Part shown: piece by piece, positions 29,932 to 42,122 of the stretch | How the letters are laid out: every line of letters starts with the position of its first letter | Position numbering within the stretch: the stretch's first letter is position 1 | Assembly: GCF_034424215.1 (NCBI RefSeq) | Contig: NZ_CP139960.1 | Coordinates: 1,674,001 to 1,738,000 of the forward strand | DNA: 64,000 nt | Origin: Niabella yanshanensis | Lineage (GTDB): Bacteria > Bacteroidota > Bacteroidia > Chitinophagales > Chitinophagaceae | Direction: 5' to 3' | Notes under the pieces: generated by a model | What the model was told of the DNA's origin: nothing | Database searches by the model: none | What the model saw: the letters and a program-made list of their open reading frames with translations, nothing else | Position numbers and translations under genes: made by a program

Positions 29932-30080
29932 GTTTATCAAGCTAAGGCCAAAGGCTATTATTTTATTTTAATTCCTTGTATATTTTTTTATTGATTTCCT
30001 GCCAAGGGGAACTCCCATTCATTGTTTTATTCATTCTTCGATAATTGGCGAATAAAAAATTGAATGTACGTTTGAAACCA

Positions 30081-30106
30081 AAAAAAACCCCGGTACTACC
30101 GGGGTT
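30081..30106 (-). terminator. trp operon attenuator (leader terminator)
   Basis: On the minus strand AACCCCGG-TAGTA-CCGGGGTT forms an 8-bp GC-rich stem with a 5-nt loop and runs into a row of seven T. It lies between the leader peptide stop and trpE. The 5' arm can instead pair with the leader coding sequence: GGGGU at 30147-30151 with ACCCC at 30101-30105, extended by UUGU (30142-30145) with ACAA (30108-30111), giving a mutually exclusive antiterminator. Confidence 0.88.
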
Positions 30107-30139
30107 CTTGTATATCATTCATCTTTATGATGCGCAGCA

Positions 30140-30199
30140 TTACAATACCCCATTAGAGTTTGCGTGCCACCACCAAAAAAGATTCTTTTTATTTTTCAT
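30140..30199 (-). CDS. trpL: trp operon leader peptide
   Basis: Nineteen-codon reading frame: MKNKKNLF, three consecutive Trp codons (30167-30175), then HANSNGVL and TAA. Three adjacent TGG codons in so short a frame, between a consensus promoter and a terminator in front of trpE, identify a ribosome-sensing leader. When Trp is short, a ribosome stalled at the TGG codons leaves the GGGGUAUUGU segment in codons 16-20 free to form the antiterminator; when Trp is plentiful the ribosome reaches the stop, covers that segment and lets the terminator at 30081-30106 form. Mechanism inferred by analogy with classical amino-acid attenuation. Confidence 0.88.
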   Translation of the reverse strand: MKNKKNLFWWWHANSNGVL

Positions 30200-30204
30200 C
30201 GTCA

Positions 30205-30235
30205 CAAATATAATAGTTAATTGATTGCAGACAAA
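30205..30235 (-). promoter_or_regulatory. trp operon promoter
   Basis: Minus strand TTTG (30232-30235), 19-nt spacer, TATATTTG (30205-30212): a full match to the Bacteroidetes sigma-A consensus. The -7 box ends 5 nt before the leader peptide ATG, so transcription should begin at or just before that ATG. Confidence 0.8.
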
Positions 30236-34041: not shown

Positions 34042-35034
34042 CTAAACTATACGGGGAATTTTCTGCTCCTGCATCATCAGGTCTGCCAAAACTATGGCCG
34101 TAGCAGCTTCTACAATAACGGGTGCCCTCAAAGCCACACAAAGATCATGGCGACCTTTTACCGAAAAATCTTCAGTTTGACCGGTTTCCCAGTTTAAGCT
34201 ATGTTGCTGTTTAGGAGTTGATGCAGTAGGTTTTACTGCAATGCGAAATACTAATTCATTTCCATTCGTAATACCTCCTACGATCCCACCCGCATGGTTG
34301 GTAGTTGTTTTTCCATCCATATTTTCAATGGCGTCATTATGCTGGCTGCCGAACATTTTAGCTGCAGCAAAACCACTTCCGAACTCCACTCCCTTAACTG
34401 CCGGAATAGAGAACATTGCATGCGCTATTAAAGACTCGACCGAATCGAAATGCGGCTCACCTAAACCCAGCGGTAAACCGTTTACCCGGCATTCAATAAT
34501 GCCCCCTACCGAATCCTTCGCGTCAATACCTTTTTGGAGGCCCTTTTCCAGGTCGGTTTCGCCGGCAATCTCCGTAACTCTTGCTTCTACAGTAATACCT
34601 TTCAGTAGTTTTTTGGCGATCACGCCGGCTCCAACCAAACCAGTAGTTAGCCGGGCGCTAAAATGGCCGCCGCCACGATAATCTTCAAAACCACCAAACT
34701 TTTTATGGGCAACAAAATCTGCATGGCCCGGACGTGGAAAACTGCGCTGTTTTTCATAATCGCCGCTACGGGTATTCTTGTTTTCAAAAAAGATCATGAT
34801 CGGAAAGCCCGTTGTCTTCCCATTAAAATTTCCACTCCTGAAAATAGGTATATCATCCTCTTTTCTTGGTGTTGCACCTTTTTGTGTACCACCTTTCCGG
34901 CGTTCCATATCGGGCAGAAAATCTTCCACGGGAATATCCAAACCGGCTGGGCAACCATCGATCACCACACCCACCCCATCTCCATGAGACTCACCAAATA
35001 TCTGCACCCTGAAAATTCTGCCAAAAGAATTCAT
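34042..35034 (-). CDS. aroC: Chorismate synthase
   Basis: FMN-dependent trans-1,4 elimination of EPSP to chorismate, the last common aromatic step. 330 aa. Signatures: FRVQIFGESHGDGVGVVIDGCPAG (as FGESHGDGVG), ERRKGGTQKG, RPGHADF, YRGGGHFSARLT, FGSQHNDAI and KPTASTPKQQ. Final gene of the minus-strand aromatic supraoperon, 80 nt after aroA across a GTAC-rich spacer. Confidence 0.96.
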   Translation of the reverse strand: MNSFGRIFRVQIFGESHGDGVGVVIDGCPAGLDIPVEDFLPDMERRKGGTQKGATPRKEDDIPIFRSGNFNGKTTGFPIMIFFENKNTRSGDYEKQRSFPRPGHADFVAHKKFGGFEDYRGGGHFSARLTTGLVGAGVIAKKLLKGITVEARVTEIAGETDLEKGLQKGIDAKDSVGGIIECRVNGLPLGLGEPHFDSVESLIAHAMFSIPAVKGVEFGSGFAAAKMFGSQHNDAIENMDGKTTTNHAGGIVGGITNGNELVFRIAVKPTASTPKQQHSLNWETGQTEDFSVKGRHDLCVALRAPVIVEAATAIVLADLMMQEQKIPRIV

Positions 35035-35114: not shown

Positions 35115-36458
35115 CTAGCCTTTAAATCCTTCTTTTAATGCGGATAAATCAATTCCTCCTTTAACCCGGGCGCCTAATGTTTTGATATGGTCGTAAAAAT
35201 CAGGGTAAGATTTATTAACAGCATAAGCTTCTTCAATAGTCGTATCACCTTCTGCCCTTAAAGCAGCAACCGCACAAGCCATGGCAATGCGATGATCGTG
35301 GCGAGAATGTACCAGTGTTCCTTTTAAACCATTACCGCCATGCACATACATCAGGTCTCCATCCAGATCTACTTTTAAGCCCATTTTACCAAACTCCTCC
35401 TGTAAAGTAATACCGCGATCACTTTCCTTATGCGCCAACCGGCTCACTCCTTTTATTTTTGTCACGCCGTTACAATAAGCCGCTAATGCTACCAATGGTG
35501 GAAATAAATCCGGGCAATCTGTAGCGTCGAACTCAAAAGCGTTCATCTCTGTTTGATGCAGCTGAATCGCTTTAGCATCAATAGCAATGCCTGCATTAGC
35601 TGCCATCAAAGCTTCGGTAATTTTTTTGTCAGCCTGTGTGCTGCTCATGCTTAGGCCACGTACAGAAATATTACCTGCGATAGCGCCTGCAACCAGCAGG
35701 AAAGCCCCGCCGCTCCAGTCACCTTCTACTGTATAGTTAGATGTTGTTTCTGTAGCAGGGGCATCTTTATGAAAAACAAACTCTTCATAATTCTTATTCT
35801 CAGGAACTTTTAAGCCAAACTTCTTCATCACATCCAGTGTCAGGTCTATATAAGGCTTACTTTTCAAGTTGTTTACCTTTATAGAAACGCTGTCGCCTTC
35901 AAACGGCGCTACGGCATAGGCCAACAATAAGCCTGTTAAAAATTGTGAGCTTAAAGATCCGTCGATAGTGATGTTTTTAGGCTGTAGCGGACCTTGTATA
36001 ACTAATGGCAATTTACCACCGTTAGATTCCACTGTAACACCTATCTGTGGCAGGATCTCGTCAAAAAAATCCATGGGCCGGGTCACCAAACTTCCTTCGC
36101 CATTGATCGTTATTTTATTGCTGGTTAAAGCAGCCAGCGGCGTAAACATACGAATGCTCAAACCACTTTCCCCGCAATTAATAGCACCTCCCTGATCTCC
36201 GTTCATAAAAGCAACTTCAGCAGCTGGTGAGAAACCGGTACTATCAATCACGAGACCCTCATTTCCTTTCTCTATAATAGCCCCTAAAGACTGTATAATG
36301 CCCATGGCAGCTATATCATCGTTGCTATGCCCCGGATTATACACTACAGATCTTTTTGCTGCTACCAAACCCGCTGCACAAGCACGTTGCATAGAGCTTT
36401 TAGATGCCGGGGCCAAAATATCACCTTTTAAAGCGGAGGGGGAAATCGTTACTTTCAT
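35115..36458 (-). CDS. aroA: 3-phosphoshikimate 1-carboxyvinyltransferase (EPSP synthase)
   Basis: Transfers enolpyruvyl from PEP to shikimate-3-phosphate. 447 aa, two inside-out alpha/beta domains. Substrate-binding segments: PASKSSMQRACAAGL (Lys/Ser site), INCGESGLSIRMF, GSLSSQFLTGLLLA, DCPDLFPPLVALA, RLAHKESDRG and SRHDHRIAMACAVAAL. The GESGLSIRM segment replaces the glyphosate-sensitive NAGTAMRPL of class I enzymes, so it is a divergent (class II-like) form; sensitivity cannot be predicted from this alone. Fourth position from the end of the supraoperon. Confidence 0.95.
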   Translation of the reverse strand: MKVTISPSALKGDILAPASKSSMQRACAAGLVAAKRSVVYNPGHSNDDIAAMGIIQSLGAIIEKGNEGLVIDSTGFSPAAEVAFMNGDQGGAINCGESGLSIRMFTPLAALTSNKITINGEGSLVTRPMDFFDEILPQIGVTVESNGGKLPLVIQGPLQPKNITIDGSLSSQFLTGLLLAYAVAPFEGDSVSIKVNNLKSKPYIDLTLDVMKKFGLKVPENKNYEEFVFHKDAPATETTSNYTVEGDWSGGAFLLVAGAIAGNISVRGLSMSSTQADKKITEALMAANAGIAIDAKAIQLHQTEMNAFEFDATDCPDLFPPLVALAAYCNGVTKIKGVSRLAHKESDRGITLQEEFGKMGLKVDLDGDLMYVHGGNGLKGTLVHSRHDHRIAMACAVAALRAEGDTTIEEAYAVNKSYPDFYDHIKTLGARVKGGIDLSALKEGFKG

Positions 36459-36625: not shown

Positions 36626-37642
36626 TTATAATTTATTAATTATTTTCTCTAAACGTTGTAATGGAATAGGGTGTACCACAGCCTTTCCAATTTTATTCAG
36701 CAGCACGAAATTCATTTCCTTCTGAACTCGTTTTTTGTCCATCGCTAAAACTTCAAATACTTTTTTGGCGTCAAAAGAAATTGAGGTAGGCAACTGGTAT
36801 TTTTCGATCAAAGCCTTCACTCGCTCTTTACTATCAAAGCCCAGTAATTGCTCTGAGATCTGTCCCGCGTATACCATACCTATAGCAACCGCTTCCCCAT
36901 GCATCAAACCATACTGTGTTTCAATGGCATGGCCAATGGTATGACCATAGTTCAATAAGCGCCTGTCGCCTTTTTCAAATTCATCTTTCTGCACCACTTT
37001 GGTTTTGATCAGGGCATTGCGCTGAATGAGTTCAGCCAGCAATTTTTTATCCTTCATATAATCGGCCAGGCGATGTTGCTCCAACTGCTTAAACATAGCG
37101 GCATCTTTAATACAGGCATGTTTAATAATTTCAGCAAACCCGTTCTGCCACTCCTTTTCAGGCAACGACTGCAATAAAGACAGATCATGCAACAGGAAGG
37201 AGGGCTGGCGGATAATACCGACCATATTTTTATATAAACCTACGTCAATGCCGTTCTTACCTCCAATGGATGCATCTACCAAACCCAGGATAGTTGTAGG
37301 AACAAAACCAAATTGTATCCCACGCATGTATATCGATGCTGTATAACCTGTAATGTCCGTAATCACGCCTCCACCTACACCGATCAGCACTGATTTACGG
37401 TCTACTTTTTTATCGATCAGCTGTCCAATGATACCATCAACCAGAGATTGGTTTTTCTGGTCTTCTCCCGGAGGAATAACGATGGTTGTAAAGCCTTTGA
37501 ATTTTGATTCATGAGCTTTGAAGATATTTTCGTCAGTAATGACGATCGCGCTTCGTTTATCAACTATTTTTCCAAGCTCCTTTAAAGAACTGTCAAAATA
37601 AAAATCGGTAGAAGCGTTGGAAAACTTAATGGTCTGAGCCAA
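36626..37642 (-). CDS. aroB: 3-dehydroquinate synthase
   Basis: NAD- and metal-dependent cyclisation of DAHP to 3-dehydroquinate. 338 aa from a TTG start at 37642 (no ATG is available close by). Motifs: VIPPGEDQKNQS (NAD region), GVGGGVITDITGYTASIYMRGI, PTTILGLVDASIGGKNGID, metal ligands in EIIKHACI (Glu), NYGHTIGHAIE (His) and MHGEAVAIGM (His). Preceded by a 136-nt spacer filled with GTACGATGTAC words. Confidence 0.95.
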   Translation of the reverse strand: MAQTIKFSNASTDFYFDSSLKELGKIVDKRSAIVITDENIFKAHESKFKGFTTIVIPPGEDQKNQSLVDGIIGQLIDKKVDRKSVLIGVGGGVITDITGYTASIYMRGIQFGFVPTTILGLVDASIGGKNGIDVGLYKNMVGIIRQPSFLLHDLSLLQSLPEKEWQNGFAEIIKHACIKDAAMFKQLEQHRLADYMKDKKLLAELIQRNALIKTKVVQKDEFEKGDRRLLNYGHTIGHAIETQYGLMHGEAVAIGMVYAGQISEQLLGFDSKERVKALIEKYQLPTSISFDAKKVFEVLAMDKKRVQKEMNFVLLNKIGKAVVHPIPLQRLEKIINKL

Positions 37643-37778: not shown

Positions 37779-38867
37779 TTAGGCGTCTAACACCTGTTTC
37801 TGGTGGTTGATACTTTCCAGGTGAACCGCATCTAAGTACTTATTCAAAAAGTCGCGGCTTAATCCCAGTTTTTCACCACGGGCGGCTGTCTTTTCAATAA
37901 TTTCCTGCCAACGGCCCGGCTGTAAAATAGTGATGTTATTATCCTTTTTATATTGACCGATCTGATCAGCAATTTTCATACGTTGTGCCAGTATTTGCAA
38001 CATTTCATCGTCCAGGTGGTTGATTTGCTGACGTAATTTTTCCAAAGCCTGGTGGTAGTCCTGGTTGTCCACATCTTCTTTTCTCCAGATGATCGCTTCC
38101 ATCATTTCTTTCAAACGAGCGGGGGTTACCTGCTGTTTTGCATCGCTCCATGCATTATCCGGATCGATATGGCTTTCGATCATCAAACCATCATAATCCA
38201 GGTCAATAGCTTTTTGAGAAACCTCTAACAGGTTATCGCGCTTACCACAGATATGAGACGGGTCGTTAAAGATCGGCAGTTCAGGGTATTTTAATTTCAT
38301 TTCAATAGCCAGGTGCCACATGGGTGCGTTACGGTATTGGGTATTACCATAAGAAGAAAAACCACGGTGAATTAAACCCAGGTTTTTAATACCGGCACGG
38401 GCAATCCTTTCTACACCACCAGCCCACAATTCCAGATCAGGGTTGATCGGGTTTTTCACCAATACCGGTACATCTACACCACGTAAGGCATCTGCTACTT
38501 CCTGAACACTGAAAGGGTTCACCGTAGTACGGGCACCTATCCAAAGCACGTCAACATCAAAAGTTAAAGCATCCTGTACCTGTTTGGCAGTCGCCACTTC
38601 AATAGCAGTAGGTAACCCCGTAATCTGTTTGGCTTTTTGTAACCAGGGTAAACCTTTGGCTCCTATACCTTCGAACATACCGGGTTTGGTACGTGGCTTC
38701 CAGATACCAGCGCGTAACATATCTACTTTACCGGTTGCTGCTAATTGCTGTGCTGTTTCCAACACCTGCTCTTCTGTTTCGGCGCTGCAAGGACCGCTTA
38801 CGATGATCGGTCTTTTAGCCCATAGTTCCTGGATTTTTTCTTTTGATGAAACCTGCTGAGTGCTCAT
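37779..38867 (-). CDS. Bifunctional 3-deoxy-7-phosphoheptulonate synthase / chorismate mutase
   Basis: First step of the shikimate pathway fused to the Phe/Tyr branch mutase; 362 aa. N-terminal KDO8P/AroF-like TIM barrel (about 10-265): IIVSGPCSAETEEQ, LRAGIWKPRTKPGMFEG, WIGARTTVNPF, LIHRGFSSYG and FNDPSHICGKR. C-terminal AroQ-type chorismate mutase (about 275-360): ALEKLRQQINHLDDEMLQILAQR...IGQYKKDNN. The fused mutase is likely also the sensor for feedback control by prephenate, as described for related fusions. Sits between tyrA and aroB. Confidence 0.95.
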   Translation of the reverse strand: MSTQQVSSKEKIQELWAKRPIIVSGPCSAETEEQVLETAQQLAATGKVDMLRAGIWKPRTKPGMFEGIGAKGLPWLQKAKQITGLPTAIEVATAKQVQDALTFDVDVLWIGARTTVNPFSVQEVADALRGVDVPVLVKNPINPDLELWAGGVERIARAGIKNLGLIHRGFSSYGNTQYRNAPMWHLAIEMKLKYPELPIFNDPSHICGKRDNLLEVSQKAIDLDYDGLMIESHIDPDNAWSDAKQQVTPARLKEMMEAIIWRKEDVDNQDYHQALEKLRQQINHLDDEMLQILAQRMKIADQIGQYKKDNNITILQPGRWQEIIEKTAARGEKLGLSRDFLNKYLDAVHLESINHQKQVLDA

Positions 38868-38986
38868 TGAAATATAATTATTGATGTTTATTTAATAACC
38901 GAAAGAATTTTTTTTAAAATTTATTCATTTATAGTGAAAACATTGAATAGTTTTTAATCAATTTTTCATCCGGCAAATTTAATTGT

Positions 38987-39850
38987 TTATTTGATGATTC
39001 TTTTTATTTTATTAGCATCCGCTATTAACGACTGTAAGTTTTCCTGGTCACTATTAGCGATATAATCTTTAAATTTTGTAAGCTGGTCGATATGCTCTGA
39101 TAATACATCCAGTATATTTTCCTTATTCTGCAGGAAAATAGGCACCCACATAGCCGGGTTACTTTTTGCCAGACGCACTGTACTTTCAAAACCTGCTGAT
39201 GCTATCTGGAAAATAGCGCTCTCCACCTTTTCCTTTTCCAATACAGTATTAGCCAGTGCGAATGAGGTTATATGAGAGATATGACTTACATAAGCCACGT
39301 GTAAATCATGCGCACGTGCATCCATATCTGTCACGCGCATGCCTATTTTCTGGTACATTTTCTCAACCCATTCTACCGCATCGGCATCGCTTTCGCTGCG
39401 ATTGCAAATAATCACCGCCTTTCCTTCAAATGCACCTCTTACTGCGGCAGCCGGACCACTATATTCTGTACCCCACATGGGATGCGAAGCTACATAGCGT
39501 CCGCGCCTGGGATGATTTTGGACGGCAGCAATCAGGTCAGATTTGGTAGACCCCATGTCCATTACAATCTGGTCAGTCACCTTATCCAGGATCTGTGGCA
39601 GCAGGTTTACCTGCACGTTTACAGGAACTGCCAATACAATGACGTCGGCAGCTATAATCGCTTCGTCTAGCGGCAATACCTCATCCACCAGTTCATATTC
39701 AAGAGCCTGCTCTGCATGTTGCGCACTGGCTTCCACACCAATTAACCGCGAGGAAAGCTTTTTCTCGTGCAACTGCAAAGCCATTGATCCGCCAATAAGC
39801 CCCACTCCTACAATTGCTATTTTTTTCCGGTTGTTCATGCCACTAAACAT
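38987..39850 (-). CDS. tyrA: Prephenate dehydrogenase
   Basis: NAD(P)-dependent oxidative decarboxylation of prephenate to 4-hydroxyphenylpyruvate. Two ATGs are possible (39850 or 39838); the second starts right at the Rossmann strand MNNRKKIAIVGVGLIGGS. Dinucleotide motif GVGLIGG, then DMGSTKSDL, the catalytic His in ASHPMWGTE and a helical dimerisation half with HDLHVAYVSHISHITSFALA. About 287 aa, no fused mutase or ACT domain. Lies between the aminotransferase and the DAHP synthase gene, within the Phe/Tyr part of the operon. Confidence 0.94.
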   Translation of the reverse strand: MFSGMNNRKKIAIVGVGLIGGSMALQLHEKKLSSRLIGVEASAQHAEQALEYELVDEVLPLDEAIIAADVIVLAVPVNVQVNLLPQILDKVTDQIVMDMGSTKSDLIAAVQNHPRRGRYVASHPMWGTEYSGPAAAVRGAFEGKAVIICNRSESDADAVEWVEKMYQKIGMRVTDMDARAHDLHVAYVSHISHITSFALANTVLEKEKVESAIFQIASAGFESTVRLAKSNPAMWVPIFLQNKENILDVLSEHIDQLTKFKDYIANSDQENLQSLIADANKIKRIIK

Positions 39851-39871: not shown

Positions 39872-41026
39872 TTATAACCCTGCTTTTATTCTTTTAATTG
39901 CTTCATCAAATCGTTCCACCGATCCACAAAGACTAATTCTTATATACTCATCGCCCGCGCTTCCGAAAATACCACCTGGGGTAATAAACACATTCGCTTT
40001 ATATAGCACATCGTCTGCTATTGCATAACCATCTTTATAACCCGCCGGTATTTTAGCCCATACAAACATGCCCACCTGGTTTTTCGAATACACCGCGCCT
40101 AACAGATCCAGTAATTGAAAAACCTTTTCTCTTCTCTCCCTGTAAATGGCGTTTACCTCATCATGCCAGTCTTTACCCAATGTTAAAGCTTTCGCAGCAG
40201 CCAGCTGCAGAGGCAGGAACATACCGCTATCCATATTACTCTTAAAACGAAGTACTTCGTTAATTCTTTCGGCAGCACCACAAAGAACACCTACCCGCCA
40301 GCCGGCCATATTATGTGACTTACTTAGAGAGTTCAATTCAATAACAACGTCCTTTGCACCTTCAATGCTCAATAGACTGGTGGGCTCTTCATTCAGGATA
40401 AAGCTGTACGGATTATCATGTACAATCAAAATACTGTGTTTACGCGCAAAGGCGATCAACTTTTCAAACACCTGCTTATCCGGCTGCTGACCTGTGGGCA
40501 TTTGCGGGTAATTCACAAAGAACAATTTTACCTTGCTCAGGTCCGCCGCTTCAATAGCTTCAAAATCCGGCTGGTAATTATTTTCTTCCTTCAGGTCATA
40601 ATCGATACAAACACCTCCGGCAATCGTCACATTACTGCGATAAGTAGGATATCCCGGGTTGGGCACCAAAACCGCATCGCCCTCGTTTAAATAGGTCATA
40701 CAAATATGCATGATGCCCTCCTTACTCCCAATCAACGGCAAAACCTCTGTATCTGCATTTAATGCTACCCCATACCAGTGCTGGTACCAGTCAGCAAACG
40801 CCTTCCTTAAAACGGGGCTCCCTTTATAATTCTGGTAACCGTGCACATTAGGTTTTTGGGCTTCTCCAAATAATACCTTTACCACATCCGGGTGTGGGGG
40901 AAGATCGGGACTCCCAATACCCAGGTTCACAATATTCTTTCCCTGCTTATTCAGCTCATCTATTTCCCGCAGTTTCTGAGAAAAGTAATACTCTCCTACC
41001 CCCTGCAATCTTTTTGCTACTTCCAT
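39872..41026 (-). CDS. PLP-dependent class I/II aminotransferase (aromatic branch)
   Basis: Fold-type I aminotransferase of 384 aa. PLP motifs: LGIGSPDLPPHP substrate loop, GSKEGI phosphate-binding region, NPGYPTYR, HDNPYSFI, and the Schiff-base Lys in ELNSLSKSHNMAGWRVG (Lys about 235). Its position between pheA and tyrA argues for transamination of phenylpyruvate/hydroxyphenylpyruvate or of prephenate; family resemblance to LL-diaminopimelate/aspartate aminotransferases leaves the substrate open. Its ATG overlaps the pheA stop by 10 nt, so expression is coupled. Confidence 0.9.
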   Translation of the reverse strand: MEVAKRLQGVGEYYFSQKLREIDELNKQGKNIVNLGIGSPDLPPHPDVVKVLFGEAQKPNVHGYQNYKGSPVLRKAFADWYQHWYGVALNADTEVLPLIGSKEGIMHICMTYLNEGDAVLVPNPGYPTYRSNVTIAGGVCIDYDLKEENNYQPDFEAIEAADLSKVKLFFVNYPQMPTGQQPDKQVFEKLIAFARKHSILIVHDNPYSFILNEEPTSLLSIEGAKDVVIELNSLSKSHNMAGWRVGVLCGAAERINEVLRFKSNMDSGMFLPLQLAAAKALTLGKDWHDEVNAIYRERREKVFQLLDLLGAVYSKNQVGMFVWAKIPAGYKDGYAIADDVLYKANVFITPGGIFGSAGDEYIRISLCGSVERFDEAIKRIKAGL

Positions 41027-41898
41027 ATGCCTTTATTATAAATGCCGTAAATTTTAATAGCTTCTGTTAATGGTTTTAATTTTTCAATTACCCTTTCAAA
41101 AGTTTTTATATTGTCAAATTCAAGGTCTGCATGAAACTGGTACTTGAATTCTGAACCGGGAATAGGGAAGCTTTGCAGCTTCGACATGTTTACTTTATGT
41201 ATGGCCATCACTCCTAAAACCCTTGCCAGCGCCCCTTCCTTGTGAATCGTCTGAAAATTGATCGACGCTTTATTCCCGGTTTGAGGTTCTTCAATATCTT
41301 CCGGCCTTTTAAGAACCAGGAAACGGGTATAGTTCTTTTTTAAGGTTTGTATTTTGGGAGCAATAACATTTAGGTCATAGATCTCCGCCGCCAGGCTGCT
41401 GGCGATAGCGGCAGTATGCTTGCTTTTATATTGAGCAATATGTTTGGCGCTTAAAGCGGTGTCATCACTCTCTACCAGTTTCCACTTGTACTGGTCCAGG
41501 TATTCATAACACTGCTGCAGGGCCATGGTATGCGAGTGTACTTCTTTTATATCTTCCAGCGTTACACCGTGGTTTACCAACAGGTTCTGGTGGATCTGCA
41601 TATATACTTCTCCCACGATCTTCAGGTTACTGCCCTGTATCAAATTGTAGTTGGCGAGGATACTGCCCGCTATGGAATTTTCAATAGCCATGATACAGCC
41701 GTCTGTACGTTCGGCATCTTTTGCTGCAGCCATCACATCTTTAAAAGTGGTACAACATTCCACCGTTACGTTCTTGTTAAAAAAATGATTGGCGGCCTGC
41801 TGATGAAAACATCCTTCAAAGCCCTGGATCGCCATATGAGGCGTGCTGTTTGGTTTACTTACGGTTTGTTCCTGCGAACTGTCAGCTTTTGGCACCAT
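41017..41898 (-). CDS. pheA: Prephenate dehydratase
   Basis: Decarboxylating dehydration of prephenate to phenylpyruvate, committed step to Phe. 293 aa; the catalytic type-2 periplasmic-binding-like domain (about 22-200) has AIQGFEGCFHQQAA, AIENSIAGSILANY and the catalytic TRFLVL (KNYTRFLVL). The C-terminal ACT domain (about 215-290) carries the Phe-sensing motif KLQSFPIPGSEFKYQF (ESRP-like position), so Phe feedback is expected. A second Met at residue 22 is an alternative start. First structural gene of the aromatic supraoperon; stands 45 nt after the leader terminator. Confidence 0.95.
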   Translation of the reverse strand: MVPKADSSQEQTVSKPNSTPHMAIQGFEGCFHQQAANHFFNKNVTVECCTTFKDVMAAAKDAERTDGCIMAIENSIAGSILANYNLIQGSNLKIVGEVYMQIHQNLLVNHGVTLEDIKEVHSHTMALQQCYEYLDQYKWKLVESDDTALSAKHIAQYKSKHTAAIASSLAAEIYDLNVIAPKIQTLKKNYTRFLVLKRPEDIEEPQTGNKASINFQTIHKEGALARVLGVMAIHKVNMSKLQSFPIPGSEFKYQFHADLEFDNIKTFERVIEKLKPLTEAIKIYGIYNKGIWK

Positions 41899-41942: not shown

Positions 41943-41974
41943 AAAAAAAAATCCCGGCTTTCTTTGCCAGGATT
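41943..41974 (-). terminator. Attenuator of the aromatic (pheA-aroC) operon
   Basis: Minus strand AATCCTGGC, loop AAAGAAA, GCCGGGATT, then a run of nine T: a 9-bp stem with one U-G pair and a strong U-tract, 45 nt before pheA. Its 5' arm (41966-41972) is complementary over 7 bp to GCCGGGA at 42022-42028 inside the leader peptide frame, extended by CUUU/GAAA on the far side, forming an exclusive antiterminator. Confidence 0.88.
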
Positions 41975-42012
41975 CTTTTTATGTTGATTATTTTTTATTT
42001 GTTTGATTTCAA

Positions 42013-42084
42013 CTAAAGCATTCCCGGCTTCATTTCAAAAAAGAAGCTAAAATAAAAACCGGTAAAAAATCGAGTTGCTTTCAT
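42013..42084 (-). CDS. pheL: Phe-rich leader peptide of the aromatic operon
   Basis: Reading frame of 23 codons: MKATR, then FFTGFYFSFFF (seven Phe and one Tyr within 11 codons), EMKPGML, TAG. It lies between a consensus promoter and the terminator at 41943-41974 in front of pheA. The last codons (AAG CCG GGA ATG) hold the GCCGGGA segment, a copy of the terminator's 3' arm. A ribosome stalled in the Phe run leaves this copy free to form the antiterminator; a ribosome reaching the stop covers it and termination follows. Not homologous in sequence to enterobacterial PheL; named by position and composition. Confidence 0.87.
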   Translation of the reverse strand: MKATRFFTGFYFSFFFEMKPGML

Positions 42085-42091
42085 TGTACCG

Positions 42092-42122
42092 CAAATTTAA
42101 ATGATAAAATCAAATAACCAAA
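42092..42122 (-). promoter_or_regulatory. Promoter of the aromatic operon
   Basis: Minus strand TTTG (42119-42122), 19-nt spacer, TAAATTTG (42092-42099): exact consensus with the same spacing as the trp promoter. The -7 box ends 7 nt before the leader ATG at 42084, again implying a leader transcript that starts at or beside its first codon. Confidence 0.8.

Follow-up and report, generated by a model that had tools for sequence, protein, structure and literature searches.

On the minus strand of a 64,000-nucleotide stretch of the Niabella yanshanensis genome (the whole stretch of DNA analysed, hereafter the window), we located pheA, a class I/II aminotransferase gene, tyrA, a gene for DAHP synthase fused to chorismate mutase, aroB, aroA and aroC, preceded by a short Phe-rich reading frame with a putative promoter before it and an intrinsic terminator behind it (Table 1). 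The aminotransferase is probably, judging from its context, an aromatic aminotransferase; the best NCBIfam models for it were those of LL-diaminopimelate aminotransferases, which scored below cut-off. The order of these seven genes on one strand was kept at 27 of 27 loci (20 of the 103 family genomes described below and seven named contigs). The original prediction had described a TTTG-N19-TAAATTTG promoter, a 23-codon leader with seven Phe and one Tyr in 11 codons, a 9-bp terminator stem followed by nine T, and a copy of the terminator 3' arm inside the leader frame, and all four could be read on the minus strand where it had placed them (42122-42092, 42084-42013, 41974-41943 and 42028-42022, respectively). 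Codons 6-16 of the leader read FFTGFYFSFFF, and the arm copy GCCGGGA can form 7 bp, one of them G-U, with TCCTGGC at 41972-41966.

Table 1. Features of the Phe/Tyr leader locus, the genes behind it and the sister leader of the trp operon in the window.
Feature	Position	Strand	Evidence or remark
Promoter, Bacteroidetes sigma-A-type, TTTG-N19-TAAATTTG	42092..42122	-	Read from sequence; TTTG 42122-42119, TAAATTTG box 42099-42092
Predicted transcription start	~42087	-	Position of the box
Predicted 3-nt 5' UTR, near-leaderless leader ORF	42085..42087	-	Position of the box
Leader ORF MKATRFFTGFYFSFFFEMKPGML, 23 codons, stop TAG	42013..42084	-	Read from sequence
Regulatory codon cluster, 7 Phe + 1 Tyr in 11 codons	42037..42069	-	Counted by hand
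Antiterminator part 1, GCCGGGA, copy of terminator 3' arm inside leader ORF	42022..42028	-	
Antiterminator part 2, CTTTAGTTGA, able to pair with TCAAC + AAAG ahead of terminator	42009..42018	-	
Conserved TCAACATAAAAAG, directly before terminator 5' arm, partner of antiterminator part 2	41975..41987	-	Alignment
Intrinsic terminator hairpin, 9-bp stem AATCCTGGC/GCCGGGATT	41950..41974	-	5' arm AATCCTGGC 41974-41966; 3' arm GCCGGGATT 41958-41950
Terminator T-run, nine T	41943..41951	-	
pheA, prephenate dehydratase	41017..41898	-	PF00800
Class I/II aminotransferase	39872..41026	-	PF00155
tyrA, prephenate dehydrogenase	38987..39850	-	NF006307 above cut-off, PF02153
DAHP synthase fused to chorismate mutase	37779..38867	-	PF00793 + PF01817
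aroB, 3-dehydroquinate synthase	36626..37642	-	TIGR01357 above cut-off
aroA, EPSP synthase	35115..36458	-	TIGR01356 above cut-off
aroC, chorismate synthase	34042..35034	-	TIGR00033 above cut-off
trp operon sister attenuator	30080..30235	-	Promoter 30235-30205, leader MKNKKNLFWWWHANSNGVL 30199-30140, terminator 30109-30080

The original prediction had proposed that the upstream regions of pheA in Chitinophagaceae be compared for a conserved Phe-rich frame and for compensatory changes in both helices. We drew 147 genomes from this family, obtained a pheA match in 103 of them, and read the upstream DNA in all 103, accepting as a leader any ATG-started ORF with at least seven F/Y/W, including at least three F, within 11 codons. 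Such a frame was present upstream of pheA at 96 of the 103 loci, compared with none of 103 on the reverse strand and a mean of 0.65 (maximum 3) in 20 dinucleotide shuffles, so that the expected frame is indeed kept. The seven loci that failed the rule were L104, L108, L111, L120, L124, L125 and L126, and four of these had weaker or GTG-started candidates under relaxed rules. Within the genus, all 13 further loci carried a leader, and with these, all genus genomes in which pheA was matched (16 of 16) have one. The pheA of the window and that of N. hibiscisoli share 99% identity. Among 13 genus leaders, codon-position differences numbered 94, 120 and 149 at positions 1, 2 and 3, and nonsynonymous codon differences (165) exceeded synonymous ones (98); the signal of purifying selection was weak, and counts as evidence against the attenuator described below. 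In Niabella defluvii CP079215 (L036, L050-L053), a genome rated 72% complete, the pheA matches came in four pieces with stops, which are probably due to frameshifts or sequencing errors.

Outside Chitinophagaceae, we evaluated 64 pheA loci of the class Bacteroidia (60 from a class search and four of five further class members from a phylum search) under a slightly looser rule of six F/Y/W with three F in the cluster. A leader was found at 38 of these loci, in 13 of 24 families, with a mean of 1.3 and a maximum of 4 in shuffled sequences, and behind each of the 38 leaders lay a hairpin with a T-run, at -8 kcal/mol or lower. Outside the class, two of the 18 phylum pheA loci that were read (of 77 matches) had a leader. 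At three family loci, those of Chitinophaga sedimenti and two similar genomes (L037, L112, L117), and likewise at two loci of another family of the class (L131, L133; f50), Phe/Tyr-rich leaders stood in tandem before pheA, and these are possible double attenuators.

The composition of the codon clusters bears on which amino acids are sensed. The 96 clusters contained 530 F and 323 Y, followed by S (30), G (28), R (18), T (17), W (14), N (10), C (6), A (4), Q (2) and one each of P, H and D. The codons of L, I and V are one-step neighbours of the Phe codons, and none of these three residues occurred in any of the 96 aromatic clusters of the family. At least two Tyr were present in 94 of the 96 leaders, the window leader being among the two exceptions. 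Because the clusters hold both Phe and Tyr, and the operon makes both amino acids, we interpret the leader as sensing Phe and Tyr jointly, with the weight on Phe in the window genome (7 to 1). The idea that Phe-tRNA gates the pathway needs to be widened to Tyr for the family, although the window leader itself contains a single Tyr.

Strong terminators followed most of the leaders. A hairpin with a T-run, of -10 kcal/mol or better, lay behind 88 of the 96 family leaders (mean of 0.6 in 10 shuffles). These T-runs, together with those behind all 38 leaders elsewhere in the class, weigh against control at the level of translation, in which the leader would couple to pheA by reinitiation and the hairpin would be no terminator in vivo. 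Reinitiation has been proposed at leader peptides, in Bacteroidetes among others (in a portion of PMC4833913), and in several relatives the leader stop lies near the estimated start of pheA. In the window, however, the two are 114 nt apart, and we regard this explanation as extremely improbable.

Transcription attenuation would further call for an alternative pairing that excludes the terminator, and several comparisons point to one. At least 5 nt of the terminator 3' arm were copied in the leader at 71 of the 91 loci with any hairpin, where 19.9 were expected. When the eight leaders without a strong terminator were excluded, 76 of the 88 remaining leaders formed a better pairing with the terminator arm of their own locus than the average over the arms of other species, and none of 5000 permutations, in which phylogeny was ignored, reached as high a sum. 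Covarying examples were arm TCCCGCCT with leader AGGCGGGA (L118, L119), arm ACCCGATC with leader GATCGGGT (L098) and arm CCTCAGT with leader ACTGAGG (L121). Among the 37 loci with deviating arms, six (L005, L016, L022, L072, L089 and L001, the locus of the window itself) scored lower with their own arms than with consensus arms, the window locus scoring 18 with its own arm and 20.5 with consensus arms.

From 95 leader-to-terminator stretches, we picked one subgroup by its leader end and aligned its 37 leaders for a pair test. This alignment revealed a second pair of conserved segments, TTTTGTTGA immediately 3' of the copy and TCAACATA immediately 5' of the terminator. The resulting two-part antiterminator was paired in 91.1% of cells, as opposed to 23-49% in slid versions, and the terminator in 98.1% of cells. 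Compensatory changes were found in both helices of this subgroup: two-sided changes affected 5 pairs (3 of 500 shuffles as high) and 10 cells (0 of 500) of the antiterminator, and 4 pairs and 7 cells of the terminator (0 of 500), phylogeny being ignored in each of these tests. The 22 aligned members of a second subgroup mostly had a TCAACATA-like segment and another leader end, and the second helix was judged there by eye only. In 69 family loci with a strong terminator and a copy of at least 5 nt well inside the ORF, the antiterminator duplex had a mean of -21.7 kcal/mol, versus -18.6 kcal/mol for the terminator. By comparison and folding, then, a mutually exclusive antiterminator that overlaps the end of the leader is present.

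These pairings also speak against the ORF being a real gene for a small membrane or secreted peptide with the hairpin simply as its own terminator, as its hydrophobic peptide (FYFYFF), its own promoter and its own terminator might suggest. The coding end covaries with the terminator arm, the alternative pairing is conserved, the leader recurs before pheA throughout most of the family, and its aromatic content is replaced by Trp, His or Ile/Val before other operons, as described below. We accordingly give a peptide gene very little credence.

We modelled folding around a stalled ribosome with an assumed footprint of -12 to +15 around the P site, on a transcript reaching as far as the terminator loop. 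If the ribosome awaited Phe10, Phe14 or Phe15, the terminator 5' arm paired with 42022-42028 before the 3' arm emerged, whereas with the ribosome at the stop codon, this pairing was absent from the constrained fold. It was also absent from the predicted fold when codon 16, the last Phe, was the one awaited. In the full-length transcript, the terminator won in all five constrained folds; the switch must therefore act kinetically, like that of classical attenuators. The arm copy of many relatives begins 25-31 nt upstream of the ORF end, and a ribosome at the stop codon may therefore not cover the copy, which makes masking less clear in those species. The leader ORF had a more stable fold than versions of it that encode an unchanged peptide by codons redrawn from the pooled leaders (mean z -2.04, with z < 0 in 91 of 96 leaders but only -0.96 in the window leader), and segment 1 paired with its own copy slightly better than with the copies of others (1 of 5000 permutations as high). 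A stable fold of the leader ORF, as modelled here, would be consistent with a 1:2 protector hairpin.

Taken together, the sequence comparisons make it very probable that ribosome-mediated transcription attenuation acts at this locus, with charged tRNA-Phe as the signal, joined by tRNA-Tyr in most relatives and probably in the window as well. The codon cluster, the terminator, the alternative pairing and the covariation come from comparison, and we infer the transcription start, the stalling and the direction of the response. With the predicted transcription start some 3 nt ahead of the leader AUG, a ribosome could load near the 5' end and trail RNA polymerase. Under shortage of Phe (or Tyr), this ribosome would wait in the Phe/Tyr codon cluster and leave GCCGGGA...TTGA free to pair with TCAAC...TCCTGGC, in which case no terminator would form and the seven genes would be transcribed. 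With both amino acids in good supply, the ribosome would reach the stop codon and cover GCCGGGA, the terminator would form, and transcription would end before pheA. The original reading of the locus as ribosome-mediated attenuation thus gained strong comparative support from the leader, the terminator, the covariation, the cluster composition and the folding.

Similar leaders precede other amino acid operons. In the window, a Trp leader with a CCCCGG terminator lies ahead of the trp operon, 12 kb from the Phe leader, whose promoter type it shares. Among Chitinophagaceae, WWW leaders lay before 20 of 23 trpE (a count that omits seven anthranilate-synthase-like loci, probable pabB), His-rich leaders before 22 of 24 hisG, and Ile/Val-rich leaders before 7 of 22 ilvD; these are raw counts. 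Terminators followed 19 of 20 Trp, 22 of 22 His and 7 of 7 Ile/Val leaders. The seven ilvD leaders (L298, L299, L301, L302, L308, L313 and L314) mostly end near P-A-L/I-H/N-G-G or similar and have CCGCCTCC-type terminators. Within 900 nt of ilvD in the window genome, the I/L/V pattern detected no leader. Before ilvB, 4 of 30 loci had an ORF with at least seven I/L/V in 12 codons, none of them leader-like, and 30 homoserine dehydrogenase (Thr operon) loci gave no Thr/Ile-rich leader in 1500-nt flanks, which often miss the start of the fused gene.

This exchange of codons to match the operon, in the Trp, His and Ile/Val versions, is difficult to reconcile with a protein- or ligand-responsive terminator/antiterminator of riboswitch- or T-box-like type, in which the aromatic ORF would be incidental. 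Conservation of RNA features such as the terminator and an alternative pairing would be expected of a riboswitch as well. Yet no Rfam family, T-box included, reached its gathering score in the window, and the aromatic cluster is conserved and free of L, I and V, which renders such a device very unlikely. In a relaxed Rfam search, RF01859 (Phe_leader) headed the five matches with E no greater than 1 and lay on the right strand at 42085-41943, with 21.3 bits (E 0.2) against a gathering score of 55 bits; the window leader is not an RF01859 member by score. The other four relaxed matches in the window look like chance.

Returning to the attenuator, we examined its promoter and the position of its start codon. 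The window contained three exact matches to the motif TTTG-N17-21-TAnnTTTG, two of them on the minus strand, at the Phe leader and the Trp leader; by itself the motif was not significant (three in the window versus a mean of 2.36 in shuffles). In 74 of the 96 family leaders, an exact TAnnTTTG ended 0-14 nt upstream of the ATG, as against 0.23 expected. In two flavobacteria, this box spans -12 to -5 relative to the transcription start, according to parts of two reports (PMC9723704; PMC6847099). Taking the G of TAnnTTTG as -5, from these start-site maps of F. johnsoniae and F. psychrophilum, we predicted 5' UTRs of 0-8 nt for the Chitinophagaceae leaders, most commonly 3 nt (33 of 74). An exact -7 box adjoined the leader start in only 1 of the 38 class leaders outside Chitinophagaceae.

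Bacteroidota is a phylum without Shine-Dalgarno sites, in which leaderless mRNA is rare. In the relevant passages of the respective reports, 3.7% of B. thetaiotaomicron 5' UTRs are under 10 nt (PMC7366714), and the leaderless share in F. psychrophilum is 5.5% (PMC9723704). An exact -7 box just before the ATG was found in 17 of 22 His and 7 of 20 Trp leaders, in addition to the Phe/Tyr leaders counted above, and in none of the seven Ile/Val leaders. We lean towards the view that Chitinophagaceae possess one unified near-leaderless attenuator system, comprising the Phe/Tyr, the His and at least part of the Trp leaders, in which the ribosome would load once the AUG emerges and the Phe/Tyr member would integrate two amino acids over both terminal branches and four common-pathway enzymes.

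In enterobacteria, the pheA attenuator (pheL) consists of a Phe-rich leader ORF, alternative hairpins and an intrinsic terminator ahead of pheA; that of E. coli contains Phe only and precedes pheA. The leader described here resembles enterobacterial pheL in its Phe-rich frame, its alternative hairpins and its terminator before pheA. Unlike E. coli pheL, however, the Chitinophagaceae leaders mix Tyr with Phe and have a predicted 5' UTR of a few nt, and the window leader precedes seven genes including tyrA, aroB, aroA and aroC. The trpL leader of Sinorhizobium meliloti differs in concerning Trp, in another phylum and with another promoter type. A comparative prediction of leader-peptide attenuation by Vitreschak et al. 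in 2004 is said to reach Bacteroidetes/Chlorobi. The likeness to S. meliloti trpL is that an amino acid attenuator leader ORF lies at the very 5' end of the transcript, as stated in a section of PMC7298713 (and as predicted here). Naville and Gautheret (2010) were aware, in an excerpt of their paper, of leader-peptide systems only in Proteobacteria and Actinobacteria before their own Firmicutes case.

The suggestion that no Bacteroidetes case had been described did not hold, since clues for leader-peptide attenuation upstream of amino acid operons have already been put forward in F. psychrophilum, in part of PMC9723704. That portion of the report also describes structured conserved 5' elements without an Rfam match upstream of pheA and hisG in F. 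psychrophilum and other Flavobacteriaceae. The likeness to our leaders extends to the phylum, the gene, the lack of an Rfam match and the occurrence at both pheA and hisG, but a leader sequence and an alternative pairing are absent from the parts of that report compared (PMC9723704). Among the matches listed in the open-licence literature, no other paper plainly described a Phe/Tyr leader element. The Phe/Tyr leader is most likely a variant of ribosome-mediated transcription attenuation, as far as its sequence features indicate, and what is apparently new is its spread, the two-part antiterminator, the start of the ORF about 3 nt past the predicted transcription start, and the Trp, His and Ile/Val sister leaders. 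If these assignments are true, codon-reading RNA switches run amino acid operons in a large part of Bacteroidia, Chitinophagaceae have Phe/Tyr, Trp, His and Ile/Val versions of the switch, and one Phe/Tyr leader precedes genes of the two terminal branches as well as some of those for the common pathway. A start at the 5' end would provide a clean test of ribosome loading for attenuation without a Shine-Dalgarno site, as well as a test of transcription-translation coupling in Bacteroidota. The leaders would also constitute a set of small genes and RNA elements without an Rfam match at gathering score, as searched in the window.

How far control by the attenuator reaches was evaluated from the arrangement of the operon. 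In the gap between tyrA and the DAHP synthase gene, we found a TAAATTTG -7-like box without a -33 element (38981-38974, minus strand), and the operon may, to judge from this box, have an internal promoter before the DAHP synthase gene. A -7 box was present in this gap at 14 of 27 loci, accompanied by a -33-like TTG at one of them, and the spacing between tyrA and the DAHP synthase gene was 0.6-2.7 kb at 12 of 27 loci. None of the seven operon genes is aroD/aroQ, aroE or aroK. On this basis, the attenuator probably controls pheA, the aminotransferase gene and tyrA fully, and the remaining genes at least in part. The proposed supraoperon from pheA to aroC was thus borne out for its seven genes, but not as covering the whole shikimate pathway, given the absence of aroD/aroQ, aroE and aroK and the possible internal promoter. 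Four of six genus contigs (L031-L033, L036) had a -7 box in the same gap, and in the window three codons and a stop (ATG-AAA-AAT-TGA) begin 4 nt past the box at 38974-38981 (minus strand). Directly after aroC lies a gene for a transglycosylase-associated-like small protein (PF04226; 33668-34018, minus strand), followed by a terminator-like hairpin at 33646-33626, where the operon possibly ends.
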